Shown here piece after piece: positions 3,302 through 41,732 of a stretch of 51,761 nt of DNA (within the stretch, counting starts at the first letter, position 1; each line of letters begins with the position of its first letter). The stretch is taken from the NCBI GenBank assembly GCA_021647785.1, contig JAKIUC010000032.1, positions 1 through 51,761 of the forward strand, given 5' to 3'. Under the pieces are notes generated by a model. It made no database searches, had not been told where the DNA came from, and saw only the letters and a program-made list of their open reading frames with translations. Source of the DNA: Melioribacteraceae bacterium. Lineage in GTDB: Bacteria > Bacteroidota > Ignavibacteria > Ignavibacteriales > Melioribacteraceae. The position numbers and the translations under genes were made by a program.

Positions 3302-3304
3302 CTT

Positions 3305-8389: not shown

Positions 8390-8406
8390 TAGCGAGAGGC
8401 AAAAAA

Positions 8407-15762: not shown

Positions 15763-15796
15763 TGCTGAAATAGAGAGTAAGATTTATCCAAAATTG

Positions 15797-15831
15797 AAAG
15801 TCCAATTCGTAAAAAGAATTGGACTTTTTTT
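15797..15831 (+). terminator. Rho-independent terminator after the paralogue pair
   Basis: Stem AAAGTCCAATTC / GAATTGGACTTT with a 7-nt loop, followed by a run of T. It is well placed to end transcription of the paralogue genes before the next gene at 15890. Confidence 0.85.
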
Positions 15832-15889
15832 ATGCGGTTGGTTTTCTTAGTTTTATATTTCAAATAAGTCTTTTATTTTAAGGAACAAA

Positions 15890-26276: not shown

Positions 26277-27713
26277 ATGAAAGAGAATACAAGTAAAAAT
26301 ATTAAAGAAAATGGTAAACTATTTATTGATTGGGTTGAAAAATATTTTAATGAAATAGAGGGGTATCCCGTTCTGCCAAATATAAAGCCTGGTGAAATTA
26401 AAGAGAAACTTCCTTCCAAGCCTCCACAAAAGAGCGAAAGTTATGAACAGATTATTTCTGATTTAGATGAAATAATTTTGCCAGGAGTTACCCATTGGAA
26501 TCATCCCAAATTTATGGCGTATTTTAATGCAACATCAAGCGACCCTGGAATATTTGCCGAACTGATTAGTGCCGCATTCAATACAAATGGAATGCTTTGG
26601 AAAACGAATCCAGCATCAGCAGAATTAGAAGAGGTTACTCTTGGCTGGTTAAGAGAGATGTTGGGCTTAAGTAAAAGCTTTTGGGGAATTATTTACGACC
26701 TTGCCTCAACAGGTACTATGCATGCTATTGTTGCTGCTCGCGAGAGTTTAGAAGATTATTCAATTCGTGAAAAAGGTTTTGGTGGTTTGCAGAATAAACC
26801 ACGACTTAGACTTTATACTTCTGAGCAAGCTCACTCTTCTGTTGAAAAGGGTGCAATTGTTGCGGGTATTGGATTAGAAGGTGTGCGAAAAATTCCGGTT
26901 GATGAATATTTTAAAATGATTCCCATAGAATTAGAGAAAGCAATTGCTGAGGATAAAGCAAATGGATGGAAACCATTCTGCGTTGTTGCAACTATTGGAA
27001 CTACTTCTACAACAAGTATAGACCCAGTTAAAGAAATTGCTTCTATTTGTAAATCAGAAAATATTTGGCTGCACGTTGATGCCGCACACGCTGGTGTTGC
27101 TGCTGTTGTACCAGAGATGCAATATATACTTGATGGAGTTGAAGAAGCAGATTCGTTCCTACTCAATCCGCACAAGTGGATGTTTATGCCGATAGACATT
27201 TCAGTTCTATATACAAAGCATAAAGGAATTCTAAAACAAGCATTTTCAATTATCCCAGATTATTTAAAGACAGATGAAGATAATGAAGTTGTAAACTATA
27301 TGGATTATGGAATTCAACTTGGGCGTAGATTTCGTTCGCTAAAACTTTGGTTTGTTATTCGTCACTATGGAACAGATGGATTAATTGAAATTATTAGAGA
27401 ACATTTACGACTTGGAAAATTATTCAGCAAGTGGATTGAAGAAAGTCCATTTTTTGAACTTCTTGCTCCAACTCCACTAAGCACAATCTGTTTTAGAGGA
27501 GTTCCAAAAAAGATTCAATCAGAAAATGAATTAAATTTATTTAATAAAACATTGATGAACAATATTAATGCTACTGGTGAATCGTATCTTTCACATACAA
27601 TATTAAATGGTAAATTCACAATTCGTGTAGTTATATCCGGAATTAGAACAGAAGAAAAACACGTTAAAGAAGTTTTTGAAGTTCTGAATAATGAATTTAT
27701 TCGATTACAATAA
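26277..27713 (+). CDS. PLP-dependent group II amino acid decarboxylase (aromatic-type)
   Basis: Clear member of the aromatic L-amino acid decarboxylase family: WNHPKFMAYFNA, GTMHAIVAAR, SEQAHSSVEKGA with the cofactor-stacking His186, HVDAAHAG with Asp268, and NPHKWMF with the Schiff-base Lys300. The 478-residue length is typical. It would release CO2 from Trp, Tyr, Dopa or a related amino acid to give an amine; the exact substrate is not readable. It may be linked to the tryptophanase-like lyase at 45264, but the genes are 18 kb apart. The start has weak upstream signals; position 26277 begins 11 nt after the ORF6N gene. Confidence 0.92.
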   Translation: MKENTSKNIKENGKLFIDWVEKYFNEIEGYPVLPNIKPGEIKEKLPSKPPQKSESYEQIISDLDEIILPGVTHWNHPKFMAYFNATSSDPGIFAELISAAFNTNGMLWKTNPASAELEEVTLGWLREMLGLSKSFWGIIYDLASTGTMHAIVAARESLEDYSIREKGFGGLQNKPRLRLYTSEQAHSSVEKGAIVAGIGLEGVRKIPVDEYFKMIPIELEKAIAEDKANGWKPFCVVATIGTTSTTSIDPVKEIASICKSENIWLHVDAAHAGVAAVVPEMQYILDGVEEADSFLLNPHKWMFMPIDISVLYTKHKGILKQAFSIIPDYLKTDEDNEVVNYMDYGIQLGRRFRSLKLWFVIRHYGTDGLIEIIREHLRLGKLFSKWIEESPFFELLAPTPLSTICFRGVPKKIQSENELNLFNKTLMNNINATGESYLSHTILNGKFTIRVVISGIRTEEKHVKEVFEVLNNEFIRLQ

Positions 27714-28533
27714 CTAAATAAATAAGGAATAATTACCCAAGTGCCAATATTCAAATCTAACCTTGAAGGTGGTGTGTAATAAATACTTAGTTTTGTATTT
27801 TTATTCTACGTTCCAGAATTGAATTAAATTTGTTTAGTGTCGTCCCTCTGGGACTTCATTTTAATTACTTTTATGGATTGTTACCATAATGTCGCTCCTA
27901 TGGAGCTAATATTTCTTTTAGTGCCAGAGGCACGAAATTATGGTAAATAGAAAAGAATAGTAGAAGAGATAAGTGCCATTCCGCAAAAGGAAGCGGAACA
28001 GGTCGGCACGGCACAATGTACTTAAAAATCATTAAAAAGAAGGCTTGTCCGAAGGACTCACTTAGAGAAGTTTTTATAAAAGTGGGGTGAAATAAAAAAT
28101 GAATAACGTTGATTTATTACACCCCACCTTGAAGGTCATCAATATTTTATAGTGGTTTGTGTAATTACTTTTTACATAAATAATATATTGGATAGCATTG
28201 TTGACCTTCTCTAAAGGAGTCCTACAGACAAGGTTGTTTTTGTAATAATCACTTTATCCGCGGGAAGAGTATCCCCAAAAAAAACTTACCGACAAAAACT
28301 CTTGATAAGCTGGACAGGTAGGAGCAGTTTGTTAAGATTTTTGATTTCAATAAAATCTTCCTGCAAAAAGCACGGGACAGGCAGGTGTTTGCTTTTGTTT
28401 TAAATCTGATATCTGCAGATTGCCTTCATAAGTTATAATATCATTTCAAATATCTCATAAAATAAATTGCTTTCTAAATTTAAAACAATTAGTTTTAGTG
28501 TAATAAGATGTGTATCTCATATTTAATAGGATA
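27714..28533. repeat. Gene-free block of nested palindromic repeats
   Basis: About 820 nt with no gene. It contains a CTAACCTTGAAGGTGGTG repeat (~27758), a nested inverted repeat of the CGTGCC/TTACCATAAT family (27836-28019; inner arms TTACCATAAT at 27881 and ATTATGGTAA at 27937), a GTGGGGTGAAATAAA / TTTATTACACCCCAC inverted repeat (28082-28127), an ACCTTGAAGG copy (28127) and CGGGACAGG fragments. Elements appear inserted into one another. It separates housekeeping genes from the cytochrome locus. Confidence 0.7.
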
Positions 28534-29514
28534 ATGGATAGAATAATATTATATATCGTACTACTAACAAATTTGTTGTTTGTAACTTTACCCGCACAAA
28601 ATAACGAGGGAAGTCAATTTTCAATAGAATGGACAAAAAATTTTACGAGTGAAAACGAAATAAAAACTGAGGAAGGAGTCTTTTCAAAGTTAATAAATTT
28701 AGTTGCTGGGGCAACAGAAGAAAAACTTATAAAACCATTCAATCTAATTAGCTTGGGTATTGATACGTACTTTATTTTAGACCAGGGAAGATTTACTCCA
28801 ATATTAGTTTCAAATGATGGGTTTGAAATTATTCAAAATGAGGAATATAAAACTTTTCCATCGTTGGTCGGAGTCTGCAAATTCAAAGAGGGAAGTCTGC
28901 TTTTTACAGATTCAAAACTCTCCAAAATTTTTATATATAATTTTATTGAAGAAGATCTAAAGGTATTTTCTACTTCTCAAAAATTGGAAAATACTACCGG
29001 AATATTCTATGATGCAATAAATAGATTAATTTATGTTACTGAAACAGCGAACCATAGAATATTGGTTTTTAACGAAGATGGAGAATTTCAAAGATCTATT
29101 GGAAAGCGCGGTCATAGAGATGGAGAGTTTAACTTTCCTACATTTCTAACTGTTGATAAAAAGGGTACTCTTTTTGTAGTTGACGGATTAAATTTTCGAG
29201 TTCAGGTTTTTGATAAAGATGGAAGTTTTATTAAATCGTTTGGTGAAGCTGGTGATGCAAGCGGATATTTTAACCGTCCAAAAGGGATAACTGTAGATTC
29301 CTATGGTCATCTATTTATTGTTGATGCATTATTTCATACAGTTCAGGTTTTTAATTCTGATGGAAATTTCCTCTATAATTTTGGAGGAATGGGACAACTC
29401 AATTCAAGATTCTGGATGCCAATTGGCATAACAATTGATGAAGATAACAATATATTTATTGCTGATTCTTACAATTCCAGAATTCAAATTTTTAGGTTAA
29501 TTGATGATAAGTAA
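28534..29514 (+). CDS. Secreted NHL-repeat beta-propeller protein
   Basis: The ATG at 28534 is preferred over a GTG at 28510 because it gives a clean signal peptide (MDRIILYIVLLTNLLFVTLP, ending PAQ) and has AGGATA just before it. The body has NHL/six-bladed-propeller repeats in the second half: RLIYVTETANHRILVFNEDG, TLFVVDGLNFRVQVFDKDG, HLFIVDALFHTVQVFNSDG, NIFIADSYNSRIQIF (~165-325). NHL propellers bind proteins or redox partners. The stop overlaps the start of the 12-haem cytochrome by 11 nt, so the two are translationally coupled and probably act together. A second propeller/cytochrome pair occurs at 35137/36231. Confidence 0.85.
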   Translation: MDRIILYIVLLTNLLFVTLPAQNNEGSQFSIEWTKNFTSENEIKTEEGVFSKLINLVAGATEEKLIKPFNLISLGIDTYFILDQGRFTPILVSNDGFEIIQNEEYKTFPSLVGVCKFKEGSLLFTDSKLSKIFIYNFIEEDLKVFSTSQKLENTTGIFYDAINRLIYVTETANHRILVFNEDGEFQRSIGKRGHRDGEFNFPTFLTVDKKGTLFVVDGLNFRVQVFDKDGSFIKSFGEAGDASGYFNRPKGITVDSYGHLFIVDALFHTVQVFNSDGNFLYNFGGMGQLNSRFWMPIGITIDEDNNIFIADSYNSRIQIFRLIDDK

Positions 29515-31195
29515 AAATAGTGTAATACTTTTGGTCTCTATTTTTTTTGTGTTAAACATTTCTGTTAATGGACAAAGCCTTGCTACAACAGTTCACAATT
29601 TGTCCGCGTCTGGTCCTGGAAGTGTTAAAGCTACAAGCGAAACGGAGTTGTGTATATTTTGCCATACACCTCACAATAGTAATCCTCGAGCACCACTTTG
29701 GAATAAAAATGACCCGGGAGTTAGTTATACATTATATAATAGTTCAACAGCTGAAGCCACATTTGGGCAGCCAAGTGGATCTTCAATTTTATGTTTATCG
29801 TGCCATGACGGTACAATAGCTTTAGGCTCGGTTATGAGCAGAACATCCGATATTGGGTTCAACTCTGGAATAACCACTATGCCTACAGGGGAATCTAATT
29901 TATCTACTGATCTTTCGGACGATCATCCAATTTCGTTTCTATATAATTCTGCATTAGCAATGAGTGATGGTGAATTGAATGATCCATCTTCTCTTCCGCA
30001 AAGCATAACATTAGAGAATGGAAATTTAGAATGTATTAGCTGCCACGATCCGCACCAGAATGATTTCACTAATTTTTTAGTGGAAGATACTCGATATTCA
30101 ACCTTGTGTATTTCATGCCACGATAAAACAGATTGGGATATTTCAAGTCATCAAAATTCTACTGCTACTTGGAACGGAAGTGGAGTTAATCCATGGTTGG
30201 GTCTTAACTATACTACAGTAGCTGAAAATGGATGTGAAAATTGTCATACACCCCATAATGCTTCTAGCAGCCAGCGTCTGTTAAACTATAACAATGATGA
30301 AGATAATTGTATCGTATGTCATAATGGAAATGTAGCCACCGAAGATATTCAGAGTGAATTGGTAAAGCCTTACTCCCATAATGTTTATCTGTACGACCAG
30401 TTACACGATCTAAGTGAAACAGGAGTTGTAACAACTAAGCATGTGGAATGTCAGGATTGCCATAATCCGCATCAATCAAGCAGCACCGCTGCATCTCCGC
30501 CATTTGCATCTGGTCAAATAAGTGGAGTAAAAGGTATAAACACAACCGGAAATAATATTGAACCAATTCAAAATCAGTACGAACTCTGCTATAAATGCCA
30601 TGCCGATAGCCCCGACAAACCTGGAAGTCCTACATCACGCCAGATTGAGCAAGATAATGTACGGCTCGAGTTTGATGTGAACAATCCATCTTACCACCCC
30701 ATTGAGGCTGCTGGTGTAAATACAAATGTTAAAAGTCTTCTTTCACCATATACAGAAACGAGCATCATTTATTGTACTGATTGCCATGCCAGCAATGGCA
30801 CTGGCTCTCCGAAAGGACCGCATGGTTCAATTTATCCGCAAATATTAAAGTATGATTATAAACGAGTAAGTGGTTCTGCAGAATCGTATCAAAATTACGA
30901 ACTCTGTTATCAATGTCACGATAGAAATCAGATAATTAATGGTATGGGAAAATTTGCGAAAAGGGTTCACCGAAAGCATATTGTTGGCGAGGATATTTCA
31001 TGTAATGCCTGCCACGATCCGCATGGTATTAGCAGCTCTCAAGGTAACAGCACAAATAATACACACTTAATAAATTTTGATTTGTCAGTTGTTACTCCGT
31101 ATAATGGACGATTAGAATTTGAAGATTTAGGGAGTTATAGAGGAAGATGTTATTTAGAATGCCATGGTGAACAACATAGACCTGAAAGTTATTGA
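29504..31195 (+). CDS. Secreted multihaem c-type cytochrome, 12 predicted haems
   Basis: Eleven CxxCH motifs and one CxxxCH (CYLECH near the C-terminus) are present in 563 residues after a signal peptide. Many are the paired form CxxCH-x-PH (CIFCHTPH, CISCHDPH, CENCHTPH, CQDCHNPH, CNACHDPH), typical of the 'doubled CXXCH' cytochromes, whose extra His can ligate a neighbouring haem. The first ~190 residues match the small cytochromes at 34284, 40171 and 40934 (PLWN, GQPSG, CLSCHDGT, DDHPISF). It should move electrons in the periplasm or at the surface. The ATG at 29504 is preferred to the TTG one codon earlier; it overlaps the propeller gene by 11 nt. Confidence 0.92.
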   Translation: MISKNSVILLVSIFFVLNISVNGQSLATTVHNLSASGPGSVKATSETELCIFCHTPHNSNPRAPLWNKNDPGVSYTLYNSSTAEATFGQPSGSSILCLSCHDGTIALGSVMSRTSDIGFNSGITTMPTGESNLSTDLSDDHPISFLYNSALAMSDGELNDPSSLPQSITLENGNLECISCHDPHQNDFTNFLVEDTRYSTLCISCHDKTDWDISSHQNSTATWNGSGVNPWLGLNYTTVAENGCENCHTPHNASSSQRLLNYNNDEDNCIVCHNGNVATEDIQSELVKPYSHNVYLYDQLHDLSETGVVTTKHVECQDCHNPHQSSSTAASPPFASGQISGVKGINTTGNNIEPIQNQYELCYKCHADSPDKPGSPTSRQIEQDNVRLEFDVNNPSYHPIEAAGVNTNVKSLLSPYTETSIIYCTDCHASNGTGSPKGPHGSIYPQILKYDYKRVSGSAESYQNYELCYQCHDRNQIINGMGKFAKRVHRKHIVGEDISCNACHDPHGISSSQGNSTNNTHLINFDLSVVTPYNGRLEFEDLGSYRGRCYLECHGEQHRPESY

Positions 31196-31242
31196 GATAA
31201 TGAAAAGAACTATTTTTGAGTCCACCATTAAAAGGTCAATCT

Positions 31243-31333
31243 TGTCATTGCGAGGAGTTTTTCCCCGAAGCAATCTTCAGAATTCAACTCAAAATCGACA
31301 GATTACTTCGGCAAAGTACGCCTCGTAATGACA
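31243..31333. repeat. GTCATTGCGAGG-type palindromic repeat, copy 1
   Basis: GTCATTGCGAGGAG and CCTCGTAATGAC are the outer arms; GAAGCAATCT and GATTACTTC are the inner ones. It is a common intergenic repeat design in many bacterial genomes. A diverged relative is at 48265-48372. It fills most of the 231-nt spacer between the cytochrome and the kinase gene. Confidence 0.75.
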
Positions 31334-31426
31334 GATATAAGCTTTTTTAAGTTGACTCATTTTTTATTCAAAAATAAAACTGATGGCATATTTTTATACT
31401 AAAAATTGGTTTTTTAAGAGAATTAT

Positions 31427-33169
31427 ATGATTCGTAACAACAAAATAAGCAAGAAAAATAAATTCCTTAATCTTCGTTTTTTCCTACTCTTTTCATTTTT
31501 AATAGCATTAATAATTTCAATTTTAGATTCCTTAATCAATTATTGGTTTTTTTCTAATGATGAATTAGGTGATATTATAATCCCTTCAGTTTATTCACAT
31601 GGATTCTATCAAAAAATAATGATAATAGGTACTTTTGTTATATTTGGAATTATACTCTATTACTTCCTAAGAAAACGATTTTCGGACCAGCAATCGATAA
31701 TTGATAGTGAATTACGTTTTAAAACAGTTGCTAATTATACTAAGGATTGGGAGTACTGGATATCCCCTAATAAAAAAATAAATTTTATCTCTCCTTCTTG
31801 CAGAATTATTACTGGCTTTGCTGAACATGAGTTTTATGACCAACCCGAATTAATAGATGAAATTATTTATGAAGAGGATAAGAAATTATTCATTGAACAT
31901 GAAACAGAGGCATTATTAGGGAATGATGTTGACCCTCTTGAATTCAGAATTGTTACTAAGGATAATCAAATTATTTGGATAGATCATTCATGTCAATCTG
32001 TATATGATTTTAAAGGTAAATATATTGGGCATAGGGTATCAAACAGAAATATTACTTCCCGAAAGAGAGTGGAAGAGAAACTGAAAGAGACTACTAGAAA
32101 ACTGAAAGAAAATAATAAACTCCTTAAAAGGGAAGTTGATCTTAGCTATTTGGAACTTGAAGCAATTATATCACAATCGCCATACGCTAAAGCAATATTT
32201 GATAAAAATGGAGATACTATAAGTGTAAATGATGCTTGGCATAAATTATTTCTAAAAAAGGAGACAATTAAAAATATTTTGGATTTAAGTAATCTTCCTA
32301 ATGAATATTTAAGAGAGAATGTTGAACGAGTATTAAATGAGGGAGGAGCTTTTAAATCAGATCCAATCTATTTTGAACAATTAGATAAAATGCTGCAACT
32401 CGCTGTTTATGAAATAAAAAATTTGAATGACGAAACCGAAAAAATTGTTTGTAATTATGAAGATGTAACTGACCAAATAGAAAGATTAGATTTTGATAGA
32501 GAACTTGAACTACAAAGAACTGTTTCAAAAAAACTGTTCCAGTTTTTGGAAGATGAACGGAAGCATATCTCTAAGGATTTGCATGACCAAATTGGGCAAA
32601 AGTTAATGCTCATTAAACTAAATACCGAAATGTTAAAAGAGAGTGCCCCTGAAATTAAAGATAAAGCAGACGAAATAATTAAATTATTACTAAGCACAAC
32701 TAAAGAAATTAAAGATATTATTTACTCTTTACACCCTGCAGAATTGGAAAACTATGGGTTAGTAGCTGCTCTCGACTCAATGATAAATATTTGTGGTGAT
32801 ACTTCAAATTTTAAAGTTTCAATTAATGTTTTTGGAAATTATTCACCATTAGAGAAAAACAAAGAACTTGCAATCTATAGAATCTGTCAGGAGGTTGTTA
32901 GTAATATTGCAAAACACTCAAAAGCAACTGAAGCTAATTTCAAATTTCATTTTGAAGAAGATAAATTTATTGGAATAATTAATGACAATGGAATTGGTTT
33001 TAATATTCAAGAATTCCGTATGACTACAAATGCACCAAGAAGTTTTGGATTAATTTCAATTCAAGAGAGAGCAAAAAATTTAAATGGTACTCTGGAATTT
33101 GAATCTAAAATTGGAGAGGGAACAAATATTTATTTCCAAATACCTTTAAAGGAGGAGTTTAATGCCTAA
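31427..33169 (+). CDS. Membrane PAS-domain sensor histidine kinase (HisKA_3 type)
   Basis: Two membrane helices (~17-38 and ~63-81) flank a short external loop, so sensing is probably intracellular. Two PAS regions follow (~95-210, with WEYWISPNKKINFISPSC; and ~245-350). The dimerisation/phosphoacceptor helix has DERKHISKDLHDQIGQ with His386, the HisKA_3 signature of NarX/DegS-like kinases that pair with NarL-type regulators. The ATPase domain shows ICQEVVSNIAKHSKA (N box) and DNDNGIGF-like IINDNGIGFN (G1). No haem or iron-sulfur motif is seen in the PAS domains. It overlaps the response-regulator gene by 8 nt and sits between two cytochrome operons, so it likely controls them. Confidence 0.92.
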   Translation: MIRNNKISKKNKFLNLRFFLLFSFLIALIISILDSLINYWFFSNDELGDIIIPSVYSHGFYQKIMIIGTFVIFGIILYYFLRKRFSDQQSIIDSELRFKTVANYTKDWEYWISPNKKINFISPSCRIITGFAEHEFYDQPELIDEIIYEEDKKLFIEHETEALLGNDVDPLEFRIVTKDNQIIWIDHSCQSVYDFKGKYIGHRVSNRNITSRKRVEEKLKETTRKLKENNKLLKREVDLSYLELEAIISQSPYAKAIFDKNGDTISVNDAWHKLFLKKETIKNILDLSNLPNEYLRENVERVLNEGGAFKSDPIYFEQLDKMLQLAVYEIKNLNDETEKIVCNYEDVTDQIERLDFDRELELQRTVSKKLFQFLEDERKHISKDLHDQIGQKLMLIKLNTEMLKESAPEIKDKADEIIKLLLSTTKEIKDIIYSLHPAELENYGLVAALDSMINICGDTSNFKVSINVFGNYSPLEKNKELAIYRICQEVVSNIAKHSKATEANFKFHFEEDKFIGIINDNGIGFNIQEFRMTTNAPRSFGLISIQERAKNLNGTLEFESKIGEGTNIYFQIPLKEEFNA

Positions 33170-33815
33170 AATTAAAGTACTACTTGTTGATGATCACAAA
33201 ATGGTTCGCGAGGGAATTAAATCGGTTATTAATTCACGAGAAGATTTAAGAGTAATAGGAGAGGCGAGCAACGGTGAGGAAGCTATCGCAAAAGTTGCAA
33301 AATTAAAACCACACGTTGTTGTAATGGATATAAATATGCCTGGAATGACAGGAATAGAAGCCGCAAAAAAAATAAAAGAAATTAGGAATGAGACTAGAAT
33401 ATTAATGCTTACAATGATTGATAACGAAAAATTTATTATAGATGCACTCTCCAGCGGTGCTGATGGATACCTCTATAAAGATGCTGACATTTCCGAACTT
33501 CTTAAAGCAATAAGAAAATTAGCCGAGGGTGAAGAATACTTGAATAAAGAGATTACTGAAAAAATATTAAACTATGTATCTGGCAGAAACTTAACCTCAC
33601 ACTCTATCGGGAAAGCCTCACCGCCGCCACTTACCCCAAGAGAGACCGAAATTGTTGGGCTAATCTCTAAGGGACTTACTAGCAGAGCAGTTGCTGAAAA
33701 ATTATTTATTAGCGAATTTACAGTTATTAAACATCGCAAAAATATAATAAAAAAATTGGATGTTAAAAATTTCACAGAAGTTGTAAGTTATGCTATTACT
33801 AATGGAATTATTTAA
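33162..33815 (+). CDS. NarL/LuxR-family response regulator
   Basis: A receiver domain (1-120) has the acidic pair VDD (Asp10, Asp11), the phosphoacceptor Asp56 in VVMDINMPG and Lys in YLYKD. The LuxR-type HTH (~150-215) reads LTPRETEIVGLISKGLTSRA, then FTVIKHRKNIIKKLDVKN. Length 217 is normal for the family. The start overlaps the kinase stop by 8 nt, so they form a coupled two-component pair. Two NarL-like dyads at 34140-34180 lie between it and the next cytochrome gene and are plausible targets. Confidence 0.95.
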   Translation: MPKIKVLLVDDHKMVREGIKSVINSREDLRVIGEASNGEEAIAKVAKLKPHVVVMDINMPGMTGIEAAKKIKEIRNETRILMLTMIDNEKFIIDALSSGADGYLYKDADISELLKAIRKLAEGEEYLNKEITEKILNYVSGRNLTSHSIGKASPPPLTPRETEIVGLISKGLTSRAVAEKLFISEFTVIKHRKNIIKKLDVKNFTEVVSYAITNGII

Positions 33816-33822
33816 TAGAATC

Positions 33823-33901
33823 TTGAATAAAGAACATCGAACAAGGAATCATGAAGTTTTAAGGGTGTTAGGCATTCGTTGTTCCTTGTTCAGTATTCGT
33901 A
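33823..33901. repeat. GAACAAGGAAT-type inverted repeat
   Basis: GAATAAAGAACATCGAACAA followed by GGAATCATGAA pairs imperfectly with TTCGTTGTTCCTTGTTCAGTATTC. It follows the response-regulator stop. The same kind of sequence appears once more at ~10700-10738. Confidence 0.65.
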
Positions 33902-34015
33902 ATTCTTTCCTGTATTGTGTTTTTAATAAGGTTAATTATTTGGGTGTGCGTTTTTTTCTACTAAGATTGCAAAACAAAAGAATAAGGTAATTTTTAAGTC
34001 AATAATGCTGGATAT

Positions 34016-34072
34016 TGACAACAAATGACAATCAATGACAACAAATGACAATCAATGACCATCAAATGACAG
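34016..34072. repeat. 10-bp tandem repeat (TGACAAyMAA), five to six units
   Basis: Units TGACAACAAA, TGACAATCAA, TGACAACAAA, TGACAATCAA, TGACCATCAAA and TGACAG follow one another without gaps. The 10-bp period puts each unit on the same face of the helix. It is 212 nt upstream of the 4-haem cytochrome gene. It could be an array of protein-binding sites or a simple repeat. Confidence 0.85.
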
Positions 34073-34139
34073 ATTTTATCCCGAAAATTTTCTGGACTTA
34101 TTTTATTGAGAACTTACAAAATAACCATGTTAACCCCTC

Positions 34140-34180
34140 TACCCCTTATGGGTTACTTTTGTTATACCCCTTTAGGGCTA
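34140..34180 (+). promoter_or_regulatory. Two NarL-like dyads upstream of a cytochrome gene
   Basis: TACCCCTTATGGGTTA (34140-34155) and TACCCCTTTAGGGCTA (34165-34180) are two near-copies 25 bp apart. Each starts with TACCCCT, which matches the NarL half-site consensus TACYYMT, and continues after 2 bp with an approximate inverted half-site (7-2-7 layout). A further AGGGTA half-site is at 34200-34205. The 4-haem cytochrome starts 104 nt downstream of the second dyad. The regulator gene is immediately upstream; binding is inference. Confidence 0.45.
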
Positions 34181-34283
34181 CTTTAAAATAGACATGTTTA
34201 GGGTATTTTATACTTTCAACTTTTTTCATATTATTATGGTGTAGAAAAAAACAATTTGTTTAATAAACAAAAGGAGAAATAAA

Positions 34284-34898
34284 ATGAAAAAGTTAATCGC
34301 AATTTTAATCGTGTTTTTTGTAGCAAGTACAGCAATTGCTCAAAGTATTACAAGTTCTGCTCATGATTTTTCGGGAGAAACTTGGAATAACGGTGGTAAT
34401 GGTGAAATTTGTATAACATGCCATACACCTCACAATGCTGATGGAACAGTAACAGGCTCTCCACTTTGGAATCACGAAGTTACAAGTGCTACATTCACCT
34501 TATACAATAGTTCTACTTTTGATGCTACTATAGGTCAACCAAATGGAGCATCAAAACTTTGTTTAAGCTGCCATGATGGTACAGTAGCTGTTGATAATTT
34601 TGGAGGGAGTACTGGTGGAACTGTTAACATATCTGCTGCTAACTTACTTGGAACAGATTTAAGTAATGACCATCCAGTATCTTTTACTTATAATGCTACA
34701 TTAGCAACTACTGATGGTGGATTATATGATCCTACAACTGCATCCTCTGGTTTAGGTGGCACTATTACAGATGATATGCTTTTTGCTGGTGAGATGCAAT
34801 GTGCTTCTTGTCATAATGCACATGATAATACTCTTGGAAGCTTTTTGAAAAAATCTAATGCTACAAGTGCTCTTTGTTTAACATGCCATAATAAATAG
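34284..34898 (+). CDS. Small secreted cytochrome c, 4 predicted haems
   Basis: A signal peptide (1-20, ending IAQ) precedes four CxxCH sites at residues 43-47, 93-97, 173-177 and 198-202; the chain ends two residues after the last one (CLTCHNK). Extra conserved His residues at 27 (AHDF), 50 (HTPH), 130 (NDHPVSF) and 180 (CHNAH) match the number of haems and could give bis-His ligation. The layout matches the cytochromes at 40171 and 40934 and the N-terminal part of the 12-haem protein. AAGGAG lies 7 nt upstream. A strong terminator follows, so it is expressed as a single gene, probably at high level. Confidence 0.92.
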   Translation: MKKLIAILIVFFVASTAIAQSITSSAHDFSGETWNNGGNGEICITCHTPHNADGTVTGSPLWNHEVTSATFTLYNSSTFDATIGQPNGASKLCLSCHDGTVAVDNFGGSTGGTVNISAANLLGTDLSNDHPVSFTYNATLATTDGGLYDPTTASSGLGGTITDDMLFAGEMQCASCHNAHDNTLGSFLKKSNATSALCLTCHNK

Positions 34899-34920
34899 TA
34901 GAGTATAGTTCTATTTTAAT

Positions 34921-34960
34921 AAACTTCTGAGAAACTTAGGTTTCTCAGAAGTTTTTTTTT
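34921..34960 (+). terminator. Strong rho-independent terminator after the 4-haem cytochrome
   Basis: A perfect 15-bp stem, AAACTTCTGAGAAAC with GTTTCTCAGAAGTTT, has a 4-nt loop and a run of nine T. Confidence 0.95.
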
Positions 34961-34972
34961 AGTTTGCTGAGT

Positions 34973-35043
34973 GGGTGGAATAAAAACCTCTACCGCAAAA
35001 CATGTACCTGTACCGCAAAGCGGGATACAGGTTTATTCCACCC
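34973..35043. repeat. GGGTGGAATAAAAACC inverted repeat
   Basis: Arms GGGTGGAATAAAAACC (34973-34988) and GGTTTATTCCACCC (35030-35043) enclose TACCGCAAAGCGGGATACAG-type fragments. It lies between the terminator and the next operon. Confidence 0.6.
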
Positions 35044-35136
35044 TTGAATAAAGAAAGTGTAAACTTTTAAATTATTTGTTTTATAGGTTATTAATAGATA
35101 ATTTACACTTTTAATCACAAATGTTTGGTTTAGTCT

Positions 35137-36216
35137 ATGAATACTCCTATCAAAAAATATTTTACTTTTTTAGTACCATTCTTACTTTTATTAGCAAGTT
35201 GTTCGAGCGATGTTACTAGAGATACTTCAAAAGAGATTATAATTTATCCTGCTCCTCCAGATACTGCACGTATCCAATATTTAACAAAGTTTAGTAACTC
35301 ACTTGATGTAACAGGGAAGAGGTCTGGTTTGATGGATTATGTAGTGGGAGATGAGGAAGGCGGCAACCCAATAATAAAACCTTATGGAGTAAAAATATAT
35401 AAAGGGAAAATTTACATCTGCGATACAATACTTGGCGGTTTAGAAATAATTGATTTAAATAAAAAAACTTTCGAGTATTTTCAACCAAAAGGATTTGGAA
35501 CTCTTAAAACACCAATAAATGTTGAAGTTGATGATAGTGGAAGGGTTTATGTTGCAGATGCATCGAGAAGAGAAGTAATTGTATTTGATAAAGATTTGAA
35601 TTTTATTACAAGTTTTGGTAACCCTGCAGAACTAAAACCTACAGATGTTTTTTATTACGAAAATAAATTATTTGTAGCCAATATGTTAGCTCATAGAATA
35701 GAAGTTTATGATGACAAAAACTTTGAGCATCTCTACAATCTTCCCGATACTAATTATACTTACGGAGATTCAGGATATCTTAATTCAGCGACTAATATTT
35801 ATATTCAAAATAATTTATTATATGTAAGTGATTTTGGAGCTTTCAAAATTAAAAAATATACACTTGATGGAGAGTTTGTTGATTCTGTTGGCACCTACGG
35901 ACGTGGACTTGGACAGTTTGTACGACCCAAAGGGATTGCAGTAGATAGAGAAGATAGACTTTACGTAGCAGATGCTGGTTTTGAAAATGTTCAAATATTT
36001 GATAAAAATGGAAATTTATTAATGTTCTTTGGAGGTACATACAGCGGACCAGGAGATATGTGGCTTCCGGCAAAGGTATCAATTGATTACGATAATCTTG
36101 AATATTTTCAAGAATATGTGGATGATCGATTCGATTTGAAATATTTGATTTTTGTATCTAATCAATATGGACCTGATAAAATTACTGTTTATGGGTATGT
36201 AGATTACAAAAAATAG
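35137..36216 (+). CDS. Beta-propeller lipoprotein (NHL / 6-bladed type)
   Basis: A lipoprotein signal with lipobox LLASC (Cys at ~22) is followed by PPDTARIQYLTKF, the typical start of six-bladed NHL propellers found beside multihaem cytochromes. Blades are visible at YKGKIYICDTILGGLEIIDL, RVYVADASRREVIVFDKD, LLYVSDFGAFKIKKYTLDG and RLYVADAGFENVQIFDKNG. It should sit on a membrane facing the periplasm or the surface. It begins the second electron-transfer operon: the 5-haem lipoprotein follows after 14 nt. It is probably a structural or docking partner; NHL propellers lack redox groups of their own. Confidence 0.88.
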   Translation: MNTPIKKYFTFLVPFLLLLASCSSDVTRDTSKEIIIYPAPPDTARIQYLTKFSNSLDVTGKRSGLMDYVVGDEEGGNPIIKPYGVKIYKGKIYICDTILGGLEIIDLNKKTFEYFQPKGFGTLKTPINVEVDDSGRVYVADASRREVIVFDKDLNFITSFGNPAELKPTDVFYYENKLFVANMLAHRIEVYDDKNFEHLYNLPDTNYTYGDSGYLNSATNIYIQNNLLYVSDFGAFKIKKYTLDGEFVDSVGTYGRGLGQFVRPKGIAVDREDRLYVADAGFENVQIFDKNGNLLMFFGGTYSGPGDMWLPAKVSIDYDNLEYFQEYVDDRFDLKYLIFVSNQYGPDKITVYGYVDYKK

Positions 36217-36230
36217 AAAAGGATTTTAAG

Positions 36231-36785
36231 TTGAAGAAGAGAATTGCAATATCGCTATCTATTTCTCTACTTTTGATTTCAGCTTGCAGTAGTTCAAATT
36301 ACGAAATCCTTTCATTCTTTTTTGATGGAGTTCCTGACCCGAATGAACAGAGAATTGAAACTCAAGAAGTTGTGATAGATTCTACTGGAATTAAGAGTCG
36401 TACAGAGATATTAAGAAAAGCCACACCAGAATTTGTGTTCCATGGTCCATTTGTAGCAAAACTTTGTGATGAATGTCATAATACGGAACAAGGCTTTAAG
36501 ATATTAAAGGAAGAACCTGCACTTTGTTATGAGTGCCACGATAATTTTGAGGAGAGTGCAACGGTTTTGCATGGTCCTGTAGTTGCAGGTTATTGTACGG
36601 AATGTCATCATCCTCACAAAAGTGAAAATGAATTTTTACTTTTAAAAACAGGACAAGATTTATGTTATAAATGTCATGAAAAAACGAGTATTAGTAGAAA
36701 TGAAGAACACCCTGATATTGAAGATGAAAACTGTATTACATGCCATGACCCGCATGGAAATAACGAAGAGTATTTTTTGTTGTAA
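36231..36785 (+). CDS. Cytochrome c lipoprotein, 5 predicted haems
   Basis: Starts with TTG (AAAAGGA 7 nt upstream; no closer ATG). A lipobox LLISAC puts the lipidated Cys at ~19. Five CxxCH sites (CDECH, CYECH, CTECHHPH, CYKCH, CITCHDPH) fill residues ~80-175. Both pair-type motifs and spacing fit a small doubled-CXXCH cytochrome. The gene lies between the propeller lipoprotein and the beta-barrel (2-nt gap to the barrel gene), the position occupied by the periplasmic cytochrome in porin-cytochrome clusters. It may pass electrons to or through the barrel; that is inference from context. Confidence 0.9.
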   Translation: MKKRIAISLSISLLLISACSSSNYEILSFFFDGVPDPNEQRIETQEVVIDSTGIKSRTEILRKATPEFVFHGPFVAKLCDECHNTEQGFKILKEEPALCYECHDNFEESATVLHGPVVAGYCTECHHPHKSENEFLLLKTGQDLCYKCHEKTSISRNEEHPDIEDENCITCHDPHGNNEEYFLL

Positions 36786-36787
36786 TA

Positions 36788-38782
36788 ATGTGGAAGGTTA
36801 CTCCAAAATATCGAAAAAGTATTTTTCAGTTTTCAACTATTATTTTATTCATTCTGTTAATTTTTGCCGGGTCAGAAATATTCCCTCGCGGGAAAACTAA
36901 ATTTTCATTTTGGAATTTAAATTATATGCGTGGTTTCATTGGATTAGAGAGTAATTATTATCATCAGAACACACTTCTTAAAACAGGATTTCGTGAAGTG
37001 CAGAATAGTTCTCAGTTTAACGGTTCGTTTTCGTTAGATACAAAGAGTAATATTCTGCATCCAAACTTTCTTGAAATAGAACTTAATGCTCTGTTCAGAC
37101 CCGGAACTAGAAATGATAATTTTATTGTAGCTCCAGATCAGGCAGCTGTAACAACGGCGGAACGAATTGCACTAAGAACAAACTTATTTAATACCAAACC
37201 ATTGAGCGGCAGCTTTTTTTATAATTACGATCACTCATTTGTTAGAAGAGATTTTGCTACAAACATTGAAAATTTTAGAAAGAATATTGGTGCATATGTA
37301 AACTTCAGAAGTTACTTTGCAAAAATGAATTTCAATTATAACTTTGATGATTGGTTGCAAAACGAATTAGACTTAAATCGATTCTACGCTTCTAAAATTC
37401 ATAATTTTGAAACCTCCATTTCACAATCTTTCAGCAGAAGTTATGATAACAAACTAACATTAAATTATGCTGATTATTCAAGAGTATATTCCTACAACAA
37501 TCTTATTATTGCAAACAAAACATTTGATGCAAATTTAAATACAAAATTTCTTTTTAATATTCCAACACCGGTCAGATATTATTCGTTTATTTCGTACAAC
37601 AATCAAGTGGGATATGATGACAGAAATAAAATGAATATACAACAATCTCTTAACTCACAACTTCCATATAATTTGAGTGTTAATGCATCGTATAGTTACA
37701 ATTATTTAAAGGTAAATTTATTTACTTCAAATGTTAATAGTGCTAACTTTACTTTAAACCATCAACTATTTAGTAGTTTAAGTTCATTTATAAATTATGA
37801 ATATACTAATTATAAACAGGATCTATTTTCTGAATCAACAAAACGCTTTCAAGTTGGATTTAGTTACTCTAAAATTATACCAGGTGGTAATGTAAATCTA
37901 TCTTATACTTATGGAGGTTATAATAAATCATCCGAGAGCCTTACAAGTGTTAATTCTATTTTTGGTGAAGGTCATAAATTGACTGACGGAAATATTGAAT
38001 TGTTAAATAATCCAAATATTTTTGAAAATACAATAGTTGTTACTGATATAGAAAATGTAGTAGTTTATCAAGAGGGTTTCGATTACCAAATAATTGAGTA
38101 TGGCGAATTTTTTGAAATTAGAAGATTGTTAGGTGGACAAATATCTAACGATGGTTTTGTGTTAGTAAATTATGATTATTCTGCGAATAATTCGTATAAA
38201 TATAATTCACCAACTCATAATTATTTTGCAGGCATAAATCTATTCGATAATTTTATTCAGCTAAGTTATTCTGGATCTGAGGTAACTTACAATAATTTGG
38301 AAAATGCAAAGTATCTACTATTGAAATTAGTTTCACAGCGGATACTTTCGCTTAAGTTCAATTATTCTGGTTTTTCTACAGGTATTGAATTCAACTCTTT
38401 TGAAAGTAACATAGTCCCTTATGAATTTGTAAATTATTTTGGACAGTACGATTATCTACAAAAAAACTTTGCCTTGTTTTCTTTTCGGGCAAACTATAAA
38501 AGACTGCTTCTTATAGATCAAAATCAGAGGCAAATATTTATGACTGTTGTTGGACGGTTAATGTTTTTTTTAAGTAAAAAAACTAAATTATTATTAGAAA
38601 GCAGTTATCAGTTTCAAGAAGGAGTAGGAATTGATTTGAATCTGTTAAAATTTAAAACAGAATATCAAGCAAACTTTCGTGCGTTAAAAATTTTGGTAGG
38701 AGTTGAACTTTACGATAGGAATTATATTCAAGAAGATAGAAAATATTTAAACGGATACATAACAATACAGCGTAGTTTTTAA
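36788..38782 (+). CDS. Large outer-membrane beta-barrel protein of the cytochrome locus
   Basis: After a signal anchor (~11-30) the 664-residue chain is a run of amphipathic beta-strands with alternating aromatic residues, ending in Phe (YLNGYITIQRSF), the usual end of outer-membrane barrels. A non-barrel stretch at ~395-465 (GHKLTDGNIELLNNPNIFENTI) is likely a plug or loop domain. It contains no CxxCH. Size and position, with a 5-haem lipoprotein just before it and a 15-haem cytochrome just after, match the porin of a porin-cytochrome conduit (compare MtrB in Shewanella and OmbB in Geobacter), although no sequence similarity to those was recognised by eye. Confidence 0.75.
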   Translation: MWKVTPKYRKSIFQFSTIILFILLIFAGSEIFPRGKTKFSFWNLNYMRGFIGLESNYYHQNTLLKTGFREVQNSSQFNGSFSLDTKSNILHPNFLEIELNALFRPGTRNDNFIVAPDQAAVTTAERIALRTNLFNTKPLSGSFFYNYDHSFVRRDFATNIENFRKNIGAYVNFRSYFAKMNFNYNFDDWLQNELDLNRFYASKIHNFETSISQSFSRSYDNKLTLNYADYSRVYSYNNLIIANKTFDANLNTKFLFNIPTPVRYYSFISYNNQVGYDDRNKMNIQQSLNSQLPYNLSVNASYSYNYLKVNLFTSNVNSANFTLNHQLFSSLSSFINYEYTNYKQDLFSESTKRFQVGFSYSKIIPGGNVNLSYTYGGYNKSSESLTSVNSIFGEGHKLTDGNIELLNNPNIFENTIVVTDIENVVVYQEGFDYQIIEYGEFFEIRRLLGGQISNDGFVLVNYDYSANNSYKYNSPTHNYFAGINLFDNFIQLSYSGSEVTYNNLENAKYLLLKLVSQRILSLKFNYSGFSTGIEFNSFESNIVPYEFVNYFGQYDYLQKNFALFSFRANYKRLLLIDQNQRQIFMTVVGRLMFFLSKKTKLLLESSYQFQEGVGIDLNLLKFKTEYQANFRALKILVGVELYDRNYIQEDRKYLNGYITIQRSF

Positions 38783-38794
38783 TTAGGAATGGAA

Positions 38795-40096
38795 ATGAAA
38801 TCTTTACTTATTAGTATATTATTAACAATTACTATTTCGCTCAATGCACAAAATGAGTTGAACTGTTTGTCGTCCGGATGCCATGATAGTTATATGAAGG
38901 CAGAAAACATTCATCTGGCAATTGAGGATGGATGTGATTCGTGCCATGACCAAAATTTTGAAAATCATCCAAAGAGAGTTGGAAATGAATTTGAATTGAC
39001 AAGTGATTTGAACACACTGTGTTTCGATTGCCACGATGAACCAGATGAAAAACTAATGCAGCACGAGGCTTTTGCAGGTGGCGATTGTGTAACGTGCCAT
39101 TCACCACACAGCTCCGATAATATATCATTATTAAAATCGGAAGATGTTGGAGAACTCTGTGCAGATTGTCATGATATTGATAATGAAGAAAATATGATTA
39201 AACATGGTCCTGTTGTTGCTGGGCAGTGTAATGCTTGTCATGAACCGCATCAATCGGCTTTTGCCAATTTATTGAAAGAGGAATCTCCGCAGCTATGTTT
39301 TAACTGCCACACGGATAATAAAAAGATGTTAAACCTGCCTACCGTTCACGCTGCTTATGAGGGGAGTTGCTTAGATTGTCACGCTCCGCATAATTCTAAA
39401 TACAAATTTCTCGTAAAGGATGAAATTCCAAATCTTTGCTACGATTGTCATGATGATATGGGAAGTGAAATTGATACAGCTATGGTGGTTCACAAAATTA
39501 TTAATCAAGATAAGAGTTGTATCTCCTGCCATTTGCCGCATGCATCGGAAACTTCAACTTTATTAGTGAAGGAAGGGAAAGAGCTTTGCTTCACGTGCCA
39601 TAACAAAGAATATAAAAGTGAGGATAGAACTTTAAAAAATATCTATAAAATTGTAACAAAATCAAAAGTGCAACATGAGGCAGTAGAATCGGGGGAGTGT
39701 ATTGATTGTCACTTTTCACATGCATCCAATAATTATTATTTACTGAATGCAAAATTTCCGTTTGGCAGTTATTCTGGCGGAGCTGATCCTGACAACTTCA
39801 GTCTTTGTTTTGAGTGCCATGATAGTGATGCTCTGAGATTGGAAAAAACTACTACTGCTACAAATTTCAGAGATGGCGATGAAAATTTACACTATCTTCA
39901 TATATCAAAAAATAAGGGAAGAAATTGTACATTGTGTCATAGTGTGCATGGTTCTAATCAACCACACATTATTGCAAAAACAGTTCCATTTGGGAAATGG
40001 CAAATGCCCTTGAAATATAAAGAGATTGAAAATGGTGGTTCGTGCGCACCAGGTTGTCATGCATTGTATAAATATGATAGGGAAAAAGACAATTAA
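38795..40096 (+). CDS. Dense multihaem cytochrome c, up to 15 haems
   Basis: Thirteen CxxCH motifs plus one CX4CH at the N-terminus (CLSSGCH) and one CX3CH at the C-terminus (CAPGCH) are packed in 433 residues, about one haem per 29 residues. Most alternate between CxxCH and CxxCH-xPH. The ATG at 38795 is used because AGGA lies 6 nt upstream and the signal peptide (MKSLLISILL, ending LNAQ) starts there; an ATG at 38789 is too close to that site. There is no lipobox. As the largest haem carrier next to the barrel, it is a candidate for the wire-like or outer component. Haem number rests on motif count only. Confidence 0.9.
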   Translation: MKSLLISILLTITISLNAQNELNCLSSGCHDSYMKAENIHLAIEDGCDSCHDQNFENHPKRVGNEFELTSDLNTLCFDCHDEPDEKLMQHEAFAGGDCVTCHSPHSSDNISLLKSEDVGELCADCHDIDNEENMIKHGPVVAGQCNACHEPHQSAFANLLKEESPQLCFNCHTDNKKMLNLPTVHAAYEGSCLDCHAPHNSKYKFLVKDEIPNLCYDCHDDMGSEIDTAMVVHKIINQDKSCISCHLPHASETSTLLVKEGKELCFTCHNKEYKSEDRTLKNIYKIVTKSKVQHEAVESGECIDCHFSHASNNYYLLNAKFPFGSYSGGADPDNFSLCFECHDSDALRLEKTTTATNFRDGDENLHYLHISKNKGRNCTLCHSVHGSNQPHIIAKTVPFGKWQMPLKYKEIENGGSCAPGCHALYKYDREKDN

Positions 40097-40170
40097 GTTT
40101 TATGATGAAATGTGAAATGAAGATAATAGTTGAAAATATAAAAAGGATAATAAATAGAAGCGAGGTAAAT

Positions 40171-40860
40171 ATGGAACGGATAAAAGCTTTTACTCAGTTG
40201 AAACCGATTATAATAATTAGATTTATATTTATTACATTATTGCTATTGCCATTCTGTAATGTAAACGAGTTAAATCTATTTTCAGGTATCAAAGATAGTC
40301 ATCATGATTTTACTGGGGCGGCATATATGAATGGTGAAATGTGCATTTTATGCCATACTCCTCATAATGCAATTGCAAGTGTTAAACCACTTTGGAACCA
40401 CCAGCTTTCCTCAGCCACTTACACACTATATTCAAGCTCAACAATAGAAGCTGCAATTGGTCAGCCAAGCGGAGAATCGAAACTCTGTTTAAGCTGCCAC
40501 GATGGTACTGTTGCAATTGATAATATTGGAGGAAATACAGGAGGTACCCGAATGATTAGACCAAGTTCTAATACTGGTACTAATTTAACTACTCATCATC
40601 CAATATCGTTCACCTACAATACTGCCCTTGCTACTGCTGATGGTAATTTGGAAGATCCTTCAACAGCCCCTTCAGGCTTGGGCGGAACCATAGCTGAAGA
40701 TTTTTTAGAGAACGGACAAATGCAATGTAGTTCTTGTCATGACGTTCATCTTTCAAGGAATACACAGGGTTGTATGGGATGCCATTTTGGTAAACCGTCT
40801 CTCTCTGTTTGGAAATCGAATACTAATAGTGCGTTATGTTTAACATGCCATAAAAAGTAG
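40171..40860 (+). CDS. Small cytochrome c, 5 predicted haems
   Basis: Start 40171 is chosen because GAGGT lies just upstream and a hydrophobic signal/anchor (PIIIIRFIFITLLLLPFC) follows; the frame could be extended to 40102. It has five CxxCH: CILCHTPH, CLSCHDGT, CSSCHDVH, CMGCH and CLTCHKK at the very end. Conserved His in HHDF, HTPH, THHPISF and CHDVH follow the pattern of the protein at 34284, with one additional haem (CMGCH) inserted before the last. It is therefore a paralogue with an added haem. It may be an electron carrier or terminal component. Confidence 0.88.
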   Translation: MERIKAFTQLKPIIIIRFIFITLLLLPFCNVNELNLFSGIKDSHHDFTGAAYMNGEMCILCHTPHNAIASVKPLWNHQLSSATYTLYSSSTIEAAIGQPSGESKLCLSCHDGTVAIDNIGGNTGGTRMIRPSSNTGTNLTTHHPISFTYNTALATADGNLEDPSTAPSGLGGTIAEDFLENGQMQCSSCHDVHLSRNTQGCMGCHFGKPSLSVWKSNTNSALCLTCHKK

Positions 40861-40933
40861 GTTAATATTAAAATATTTCTAAAGTCTCCTTGCTTTTTTT
40901 CGATAGTTAGAAAAATTGCATGGAGGCTTTTTT

Positions 40934-41608
40934 ATGAGATTTCAATGGATTGAAACACTCTCAATATTTATTTTAAGTTGTGTTACTTTTTTATTCCCAT
41001 GGTCATTTTTATCATCAGAGAATTTTGATGAGATCTATAGCGAATATAATAGCTTTAAAAATGGAGGTGCAAAGTATTGTTCAACTTGCCACACACCAAT
41101 TGGCGATGTTTTAAAGATTTCTAATCCACTCTGGTTAAACAAAGAAATACCCAACGAGTTTAAAATATATTCGACTGATAGCAATACCAATCAGCATGGC
41201 TTTCCCTCTGGTGAAACAAAACTCTGTTTAAGTTGCCACGATGGTACTATTGCTATTGAGGATAAAAACGTCTATGCAAATTTTAACCAATTGAATAATA
41301 ATATGAACTTTGGGTTTTCCTCACATACTGATCATCCTATATCTATAATTTATAATAGTGCATTGGCTTTTGCCAAAGGGGATTTAGCGGATCCTTTGTA
41401 TGAACCATCAGGTTTGGGTGGTACAATTGATGAAGATCTTTTGGAAAATGGAAAATTAGTTTGCTCTTCATGCCATGCTATACATTCAATGATGGGTAGT
41501 GGGGCTTCGTCAGGCAATCACTTTAAGGCTACTGGAGGCACGTTTTCAGGAGCACTTAAAATTCCTAACGCCAAGAGTAAACTATGCTTAACGTGTCATA
41601 AGAAATAG
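40934..41608 (+). CDS. Small cytochrome c, 4 predicted haems, with altered haem-1 surroundings
   Basis: The ATG at 40934 has GGAGG 7 nt upstream and precedes a hydrophobic signal/anchor (LSIFILSCVTFLFPWSFL). Four CxxCH: CSTCH, CLSCHDGT, CSSCHAIH, CLTCHKK. It aligns with the small cytochromes at 34284 and 40171, but the first motif reads CSTCHTPIG instead of CHTPHN and the N-terminal HDF His is missing, so two conserved His are lost. The first haem could have a different or open sixth position. The DHPISI and CHAIH His remain. It closes the cytochrome locus. Confidence 0.88.
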   Translation: MRFQWIETLSIFILSCVTFLFPWSFLSSENFDEIYSEYNSFKNGGAKYCSTCHTPIGDVLKISNPLWLNKEIPNEFKIYSTDSNTNQHGFPSGETKLCLSCHDGTIAIEDKNVYANFNQLNNNMNFGFSSHTDHPISIIYNSALAFAKGDLADPLYEPSGLGGTIDEDLLENGKLVCSSCHAIHSMMGSGASSGNHFKATGGTFSGALKIPNAKSKLCLTCHKK

Positions 41609-41732
41609 GAGTAAAAGTTTGTATGTTTTTTATAACAAATCAAATGTTATCAATTCAAAATAAATTTCTAAAATTATAAATTTTGATTTCTGTAAGTTAA
41701 TAGTGTAGAGATAATAACTTAGTGAAATCCAA

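Follow-up and report, generated by a model that had tools for sequence, protein, structure and literature searches.

A conserved gene cassette for OmcE-type cytochromes and a predicted outer-membrane conduit in a Melioribacteraceae genome: a putative extracellular electron-transfer module

The window, i.e., the whole stretch of DNA analysed here (51,761 nucleotides), is contig JAKIUC010000032.1, positions 1-51,761, of a Melioribacteraceae bacterium (assembly GCA_021647785.1). At 28534-41608, six multihaem cytochromes, a barrel, two NHL propellers, and a two-component system between them were recognized by the open reading frame (ORF) list, Pfam search, and structure modelling. The genes of this cassette were named, in order, NHL1, Cyt12, HK, RR, CytA4, NHL2lp, Cyt5lp, Barrel, Cyt15, CytB, and CytC (Table 1). 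A preliminary description of the locus had been made from the sequence; the PAS histidine kinase and LuxR-type regulator at 31427-33815 were missing from it.

Counting of haem motifs on the translations gave 12, 4, 5, 15, 5, and 4 sites for Cyt12, CytA4, Cyt5lp, Cyt15, CytB, and CytC, i.e., 45 in total, in exact agreement with the counts given before. The Cyt12 motifs were 11 CxxCH and one CxxxCH, and those of Cyt15 were 13 CxxCH, one CxxxCH, and one CxxxxCH. In 2000 shuffles of each of the six proteins, CxxCH occurred by chance with a mean of 0.01-0.15 and a maximum of 2. The two propellers of the preliminary description were recovered as PF01436 matches, and its central operon with short gaps was seen again, with 14, 2, 6, and 5 bases between NHL2lp, Cyt5lp, Barrel, Cyt15, and CytB. 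Later starts were suggested by relatives for CytB (about 40171) and CytC (about 40934), and the gap between Cyt15 and CytB is 74 bases if CytB begins there. Signal peptides or lipoboxes, also noted before, were assigned by eye from the N-termini; by the same inspection, HK is the only cassette protein with N-terminal membrane helices beyond signal peptides.

Table 1. Features of the cassette and likely kinases of related loci. Positions without a locus label are those of the window.
Feature	Position	Strand	Basis or remark
Whole cassette	27714..41732	+	Stretch absent from congener G001 between homologues of flanking genes 26277-27713 and 41733-44111
NHL1, secreted NHL beta-propeller	28534..29514 (mechanical ORF from 28510)	+	PF01436 E 1.2e-23
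Cyt12, 12-haem cytochrome; OmcE-type domain at residues 12-209, 8 further haem sites beyond	29501..31195	+	OmcE E 1.1e-28 (phmmer), profile E 1.6e-38
HK, PAS histidine kinase	31427..33169	+	HisKA_3, HATPase_c, PAS_3
RR, response regulator with LuxR-type output	33162..33815	+	Response_reg E 1.1e-30, GerE E 7.1e-16
CytA4, OmcE homologue with 4 haem sites; candidate for the main filament subunit	34284..34898	+	Residues 9-204: OmcE (7TFS) E 2.4e-27, 9YUQ E 3.2e-23 (phmmer)
Terminator-like hairpin, 15 pairs and T run, just 3' of CytA4	34921..34954	+	z -3.31
NHL2lp, NHL beta-propeller lipoprotein	35137..36216	+	PF01436 E 5.2e-11; lipobox by eye
Cyt5lp, 5-haem cytochrome lipoprotein, TTG start	36231..36785	+	MtrA chain 6r2q_A E 3.3e-13; lipobox
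Barrel, outer-membrane beta-barrel, family without Pfam model	36788..38782	+	Predicted structure
Cyt15, MtrA-like cytochrome with 15 haem sites; would enter the barrel	38789..40096	+	6r2q_A E 3e-15
CytB, OmcE-type, fifth haem site in loop after haem 3	40171..40860 (ORF from 40102)	+	OmcE E 1e-16
CytC, divergent OmcE-type 4-haem cytochrome, two distal His lost	40934..41608 (ORF from 40916)	+	9YUQ E 3e-07, OmcE E 1.4e-4
Likely kinase with single CxxCH	L046:3963-5438
Likely kinase with single CxxCH	L048:4306-5775
Likely kinase with single CxxCH	L051:4055-5518
Likely kinase with single CxxCH	L053:3976-4644
Likely kinase with single CxxCH	L096:9810-11324
Likely kinase with single CxxCH	L129:10233-11702

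The filament cytochrome OmcE of Geobacter sulfurreducens (7TFS) and the related 9YUQ were matched by CytA4 and CytB over their full length and by Cyt12 with its first 209 residues, each with four haem motifs and four distal histidines. Against OmcE, phmmer scores were 95.8 bits for CytA4, 99.5 for Cyt12, 64.3 for CytB, and 26.0 for CytC, and identities of the four proteins to OmcE were 28-38%. When CytA4 was shuffled 200 times, every CxxCH and histidine being fixed in place, no score exceeded 24.3 bits, and three other multihaem cytochromes of the same genome, two of them from the cassette, scored 13.5, 5.6, and 2.0 bits. Because the scores of CytA4, Cyt12, and CytB lie far above those of the motif-preserving shuffles, their kinship with OmcE exceeds haem-motif likeness. 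At the level of sequence, family membership is solid for CytA4, CytB, and the N-terminal domain of Cyt12. CytC is weakly linked to the family, by similarity to CytB and CytA4 and by a tree in which the CytB and CytC rows formed one group (support 100/98) with long CytC branches. When the own genome was searched with CytA4, four OmcE-type places were found, all inside the cassette.

The haem ligands were followed in an alignment of 26 OmcE-type sequences. The four haem-motif histidines and distal His27, His50, His130, and His180 (CytA4 numbering) were kept in 13/13 CytA4, 7/7 CytB, OmcE, and 9YUQ, and the matching distal histidines were invariant in 10/10 Cyt12. For haem 2 of OmcE, a histidine from the adjacent subunit serves as ligand (PMC12203936). 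All four candidates for the neighbour-ligating histidine are retained in CytA4, CytB, and Cyt12. CytC is the exception, in which His50 was lost in 3/3 and His27 in 2/3 sequences. As a further likeness to OmcE, the aligned chains of CytA4, CytB (at its fifth motif), and CytC stop two residues past the last motif. Cyt12 continues past that point with its eight further haem sites; its mean column identity is 69% among ten homologues, and it has 11 CxxCH and one CxxxCH in 11/11 loci. No match was found in a Cyt12 search of plasmids.

Relatives of Barrel were collected from 97 genomes, from a contig scan, and from a phylum sample. The contig scan gave 15 loci, labelled Chlorobiota, Bacteroidetes/Bacteroidales, KSB1, and Calditrichota, five of which overlap the search of the 97 genomes. 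In the phylum sample, at least 4/395 genomes were hit by the Barrel profile, i.e., the own genome and G243 at full length and two by short and weak matches. Counted by contig, with two fragments of G033 taken as one and G243 included, 18 Barrel loci were obtained from Ignavibacteria, Bacteroidetes, KSB1, and Calditrichota. The core gene order was kept across them, which answers the comparison of related Ignavibacteria that the preliminary description had proposed. Cyt5lp lies directly before Barrel in 18/18 loci (as two ORFs in L053), NHL2lp before Cyt5lp in 17/17 (one contig being too short), and CytA4 before NHL2lp in 15/15 (three contigs being too short). NHL1 and Cyt12 were present in all 11 loci reaching far enough, turned round in L055, and the NHL1 homologue adjoins Cyt12 in 11/11 loci long enough. 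Cyt15 follows Barrel in 14/18 loci, split or cut in two of the 14, and stands elsewhere in the genome in L006. CytB-like genes were found in at least seven and CytC-like genes in at least three of the 18 loci, some contigs ending early.

A sister layout was observed in L094 (G255), L095 (G332), and L096 (G005), in the order NHL, OmcE-type protein, protein of about 560 residues, NHL, Cyt12-like fusion, and 8-haem protein. The proteins of about 560 residues had no Pfam family, and identities to the L096 copy were 23% for L095 and 20% for L094; they could be another barrel. The Barrel search gave no relative in these three loci.

The site of the cassette was compared among congeners. In G001 (L123), the flanking homologues of 26277-27713 (80% identity) and 41733-44111 (67% identity) lie 133 bases apart with no cassette between them. 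The homologue of 41733-44111 adjoins that of 24892-25728 in G002 (L098), and the homologue of 26277-27713 adjoins that of 46870-47745 in G004 (L127), both without the cassette, and the contigs of G003 end at the place. The cassette is thus missing at its site in three of the four congeners, and Barrel was found in none of the four. It is a unit gained or lost whole, either by gain here or by loss in the congeners. A mobile element was considered as the cause of the empty site, and no evidence for one was obtained; base composition varies little along the window, and no exact 12-base repeat common to the cassette ends (27651-28520 against 41591-41760) was detected.

Barrel had no Pfam family, neither in the window protein nor in 15/15 homologues. 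An AlphaFold2 model built with 15 homologues (predicted local distance difference test score, pLDDT, 85.1; predicted TM-score 0.63) contained 30 strands of at least nine residues by our own count, in line with the large outer-membrane barrel described before. Foldseek and VIA-align matched the model to large outer-membrane barrels. The best Foldseek rows were TonB receptors and MtrB was 28th by E-value, with a TM-score of 0.39, the highest among the 50 matches listed. Its alignment to TonB receptors begins at about residue 130 of the receptor chain, or later; the receptor plug, which lies ahead of that point, is unmatched by the model. The fold search is read as a predicted large barrel without plug and nothing more. 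An open lumen would need filling, and Cyt15 or Cyt5lp may fill it.

For both cytochromes, the best match was to MtrA chain 6r2q_A (Table 1). The PDB copy used labels this chain 'Cystathionine beta-synthase'; it was treated here as MtrA, as which 6R2Q_A is also used in PMC12203936. The porin-cytochrome-type conduit of the preliminary description is supported in that Barrel stands beside a multihaem cytochrome in 18/18 loci and, more tentatively, in that Cyt15 resembles MtrA; a barrel standing away from cytochromes in relatives, named there as contrary evidence, was not seen. Cyt15 has 15 haem sites in six loci, fewer in L055 (9) and in L011, L043, and L093 (11 each), and more in L051 (19) and L053 (26), at 27-33 residues per haem; L052, with 12 sites, is cut by the contig end and L005 was left out. 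Among 17 Cyt5lp rows, which exclude the split gene of L053, 16 had five sites and that of L052 had nine.

By sequence and gene order, the cassette is probably one extracellular electron-transfer module, i.e., an outer-membrane conduit combined with an OmcE-type filament. Cyt15 would collect electrons in the periplasm and enter the wide plug-less barrel, and Cyt5lp would relay them on the membrane. Cyt12, with its OmcE-type subunit and 8-haem domain, is a candidate adaptor that may couple the conduit to a filament built mainly of CytA4, and CytB and CytC may modify or end this filament. The two propellers would be anchoring or assembly factors, and the two-component system would turn the machine on. 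A varying periplasmic part (Cyt15) and constant outer parts (the haem numbers of Cyt12 and CytA4) would fit such a module.

The passage of electrons between filament and cell interior in Geobacter is called not well understood, and its filaments and conduits are expressed under the same conditions (PMC10553843). It is possible, as a tentative proposal, that Cyt12 is the missing coupling between filament and conduit. Its OmcE-type domain would be the first or last subunit of the CytA4 filament, and its 8-haem domain would dock on Cyt5lp, Barrel, and Cyt15, so that an unbroken haem wire might run from the periplasm to the filament tip, and CytC would be its cap or an exchange site with open haem. 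If so, the length of Cyt15 (9-26 haem sites) would set the periplasmic depth of the wire.

Several points weigh against a combined conduit and filament. Filament formation, conduction, location, and direction are read from homology and gene order, and respiratory current by cytochrome filaments is itself disputed (PMC11077965). The 26.0 bits of CytC barely exceed the shuffle maximum of 24.3, and two of its distal histidines are lost. In the midpoint-rooted tree, a 98/98 split places OmcE together with the sister layout and the domains of Cyt12, apart from CytA4. The AlphaFold2 model of Cyt12 (10 sequences) had a pLDDT of 32.3 and was unusable. On the side of the conduit, no PDB chain was matched by Barrel in sequence (best E 0.087, taken as chance), MtrB included, and the structural match to MtrB chain 6r2q_B (Z 17.9, root-mean-square deviation 8.9, 426 residues) is tied with those to TonB receptors. 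The haem-motif control covered the OmcE comparisons, and the best hits of Cyt15 and Cyt5lp, to MtrA, count as tentative; against OmcE, Cyt15 reached an E-value of only 0.042. For the DmsE family of NCBIfam, Cyt15 scored 138.6 bits, below the cut-off of 192.2, and Cyt5lp was also under the cut-off. The lipobox pattern of Cyt5lp was present in 15/17 rows and absent from L011 and L043. Barrel is rare, being found in 7/97 genomes, the own included, and in the own alone among five members of the genus. In L047 and L048, no convincing Cyt15 emerged from genome searches, which hit the gene of Cyt5lp or gave a match that was very weak, and in G033, Cyt15 does not stand beside the Barrel fragment. The trans-barrel wire assigned to Cyt15 is therefore not universal.

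The direction of electron flow is more likely outward, to mineral, electrode, or partner cell, than inward. An inward machine, taking up electrons from Fe(II), mineral, or partner cell, is rather unlikely. In its favour, no cassette feature fixes the direction, and syntrophic sulphate reducers have been proposed to take up electrons by means of clustered conduit and filament genes (PMC10553843). The linked NapC/NirT-type and Rieske/cytochrome b genes fit quinol oxidation instead, though they could be reversible. NapC/NirT-family matches in the own genome lie on contigs C12 and C28. On C12, a NapC-type 7-haem protein follows a second cytochrome cluster, and Rieske, cytochrome b, and 9-haem proteins are encoded further on. 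In G029, this second cluster is represented by homologues (61-69% identity by BLAST) starting 218 bases away from NHL1, and counterparts of the NapC, Rieske, cytochrome b, and 9-haem genes (72-86%) lie beyond CytB. The cassette of G029 thus stands between two such clusters, in an electron-export context.

Also rather unlikely is an account in which the locus encodes a conduit only, its OmcE homologues acting as small surface cytochromes which do not polymerise and pass electrons by collision. Homology to a filament protein is no proof of polymerisation, the identity to OmcE is modest, CytC lacks two distal histidines, and a loop of CytB carries an additional haem site. Against this stand the four distal histidines, one of which a neighbouring subunit would need if the arrangement of OmcE holds, and which every CytA4 keeps. 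Between CytA4 and the conduit genes there is also a gap, of 46-627 bases across 14 loci, and a terminator-like hairpin was found between CytA4 and NHL2lp in 6/14 of them. The same scan, restricted to gaps of at least 25 bases and made with the NHL2lp start reassigned in L046 and L048, gave 1/9, 1/7, 1/14, and 1/2 for four other gene pairs, where most gaps were too short to scan. The terminator is suggestive only; gap and hairpin would suit CytA4 as a subunit produced in excess. In the filament of OmcE, the rise is 34 angstrom (PMC12954529).

It is very improbable that the locus serves no extracellular electron transfer, with Barrel as a channel for nutrients or secretion among periplasmic cytochromes: the top Foldseek rows are TonB receptors and a sequence link to MtrB is lacking, but Barrel keeps its place beside Cyt5lp in every locus even at about 27% identity, has no plug in the model, and shares the gene set with OmcE homologues. 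A soluble nitrite/sulfite pathway, which the preliminary description had listed as a contrary outcome, is spoken against by the OmcE matches, and an Nrf-type pair lies elsewhere, on C28.

OmcE filaments and porin-cytochrome conduits are each already known. Compared with OmcE, the combined module has three paralogues and a 12-haem fusion, a 5-haem variant, a divergent CytC, and its own barrel encoded together with them. As in MtrCAB and OmbB-OmaB-OmcB, multihaem cytochromes accompany a barrel, whose model is large and plug-less; Cyt15 and Cyt5lp score best against MtrA. Unlike in these systems, the barrel has no PDB or Pfam sequence match, Cyt15 varies from 9 to 26 haem sites, and an MtrC-type decahaem surface protein is absent. 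The different composition stated in the preliminary description holds for the propellers, the small 4/5-haem proteins, and the absent decahaem cytochrome; the small proteins are not mere substitutes for the latter, as had been supposed, and belong to the OmcE family.

Clusters of OetABI with OmcX/OmcS-type filaments also join a conduit and putative filament cytochromes, proposed to cooperate (PMC10553843), whereas the filament type of the cassette is OmcE and the phyla are others. The nearest printed match found was Ga0056053_02426-02431 of Geoalkalibacter ferrihydriticus (PMC12016550), with an MtoA homologue, an OmcE homologue, and two NHL proteins. This locus is without mtoB according to the paper, and neither a fusion nor a two-component system is mentioned in the passages at hand. 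PCC3 (PMC5566968) likewise has a barrel and multihaem cytochromes of very variable haem number. It includes a conserved inner-membrane protein, as which no cassette ORF qualifies by Pfam and by anatomy judged by eye, and an OmcE-type protein is not mentioned as a component in the passages at hand. NHL genes occur in cytochrome clusters of Desulfovibrio ferrophilus (PMC9769857), so the propellers, printed there and for Geoalkalibacter (PMC12016550), are not new alone. For Ignavibacteria, porin-cytochrome clusters described as OmbB-like or MtrB-like have been published (PMC7399161).

No description of the cassette was found among the papers listed by literature searches, of which some were looked into, and a prior description in the main nanowire papers is possible. 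As far as this search goes, a cassette with its own barrel family conserved across the Fibrobacterota-Chlorobiota-Bacteroidota (FCB) group is new, as are the Cyt12 fusion to OmcE, the OmcE variants with five haem sites or with lost ligands, and the variation of haem number in Cyt15. A filament homologue, a conduit, and a link-like fusion are thereby held in one compact unit across several FCB phyla. The cassette offers named candidates for the coupling of filament to cell and a direct test of it. OmcE-type nanowires, if formed, would extend to Ignavibacteria, Bacteroidetes, KSB1, and Calditrichota.

A two-component system was found in 9/12 loci showing that place, in two forms, and was absent from L050, L055, and L093. 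The form homologous to HK/RR occurs in the window, L009, L010, L011, and L043. The second form, in L046, L048, L051, and L053, pairs a regulator of 455-465 residues where whole with a protein whose single CxxCH lies near residue 145. The proteins with this single motif (Table 1) are likely kinases by their place beside a regulator, and are possibly haem-c redox sensors. In L011 (13074-13481) and L043 (1730-2140), an extra gene of response-regulator size (135-136 residues) lies between the regulator and CytA4, and that of L043 matches the receiver part of RR.

Further cytochrome clusters were observed. The second cluster on C12 (L129:965-4993) encodes a 4-haem protein, a 436-residue protein, a 14-haem protein, and a 7-haem lipoprotein and is cytochrome-barrel-like; its 436-residue protein has no haem site and no Pfam family and is possibly a barrel. 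Another cluster in G029 (L130:3494-7718) encodes 20-haem and 13-haem cytochromes and a haem-less protein of 535 residues. On C28 (L119:12540-14625), a cytochrome c552-type nitrite reductase (PF02335 E 4.4e-160) adjoins the NapC/NirT-family gene, and two proteins with 23 and 16 CxxCH are encoded near the reductase. In the window itself, 1994-18049 encodes several secreted proteins that carry Por_Secre_tail domains, for type IX sorting, and two proteins of this region have VWA and VIT domains.

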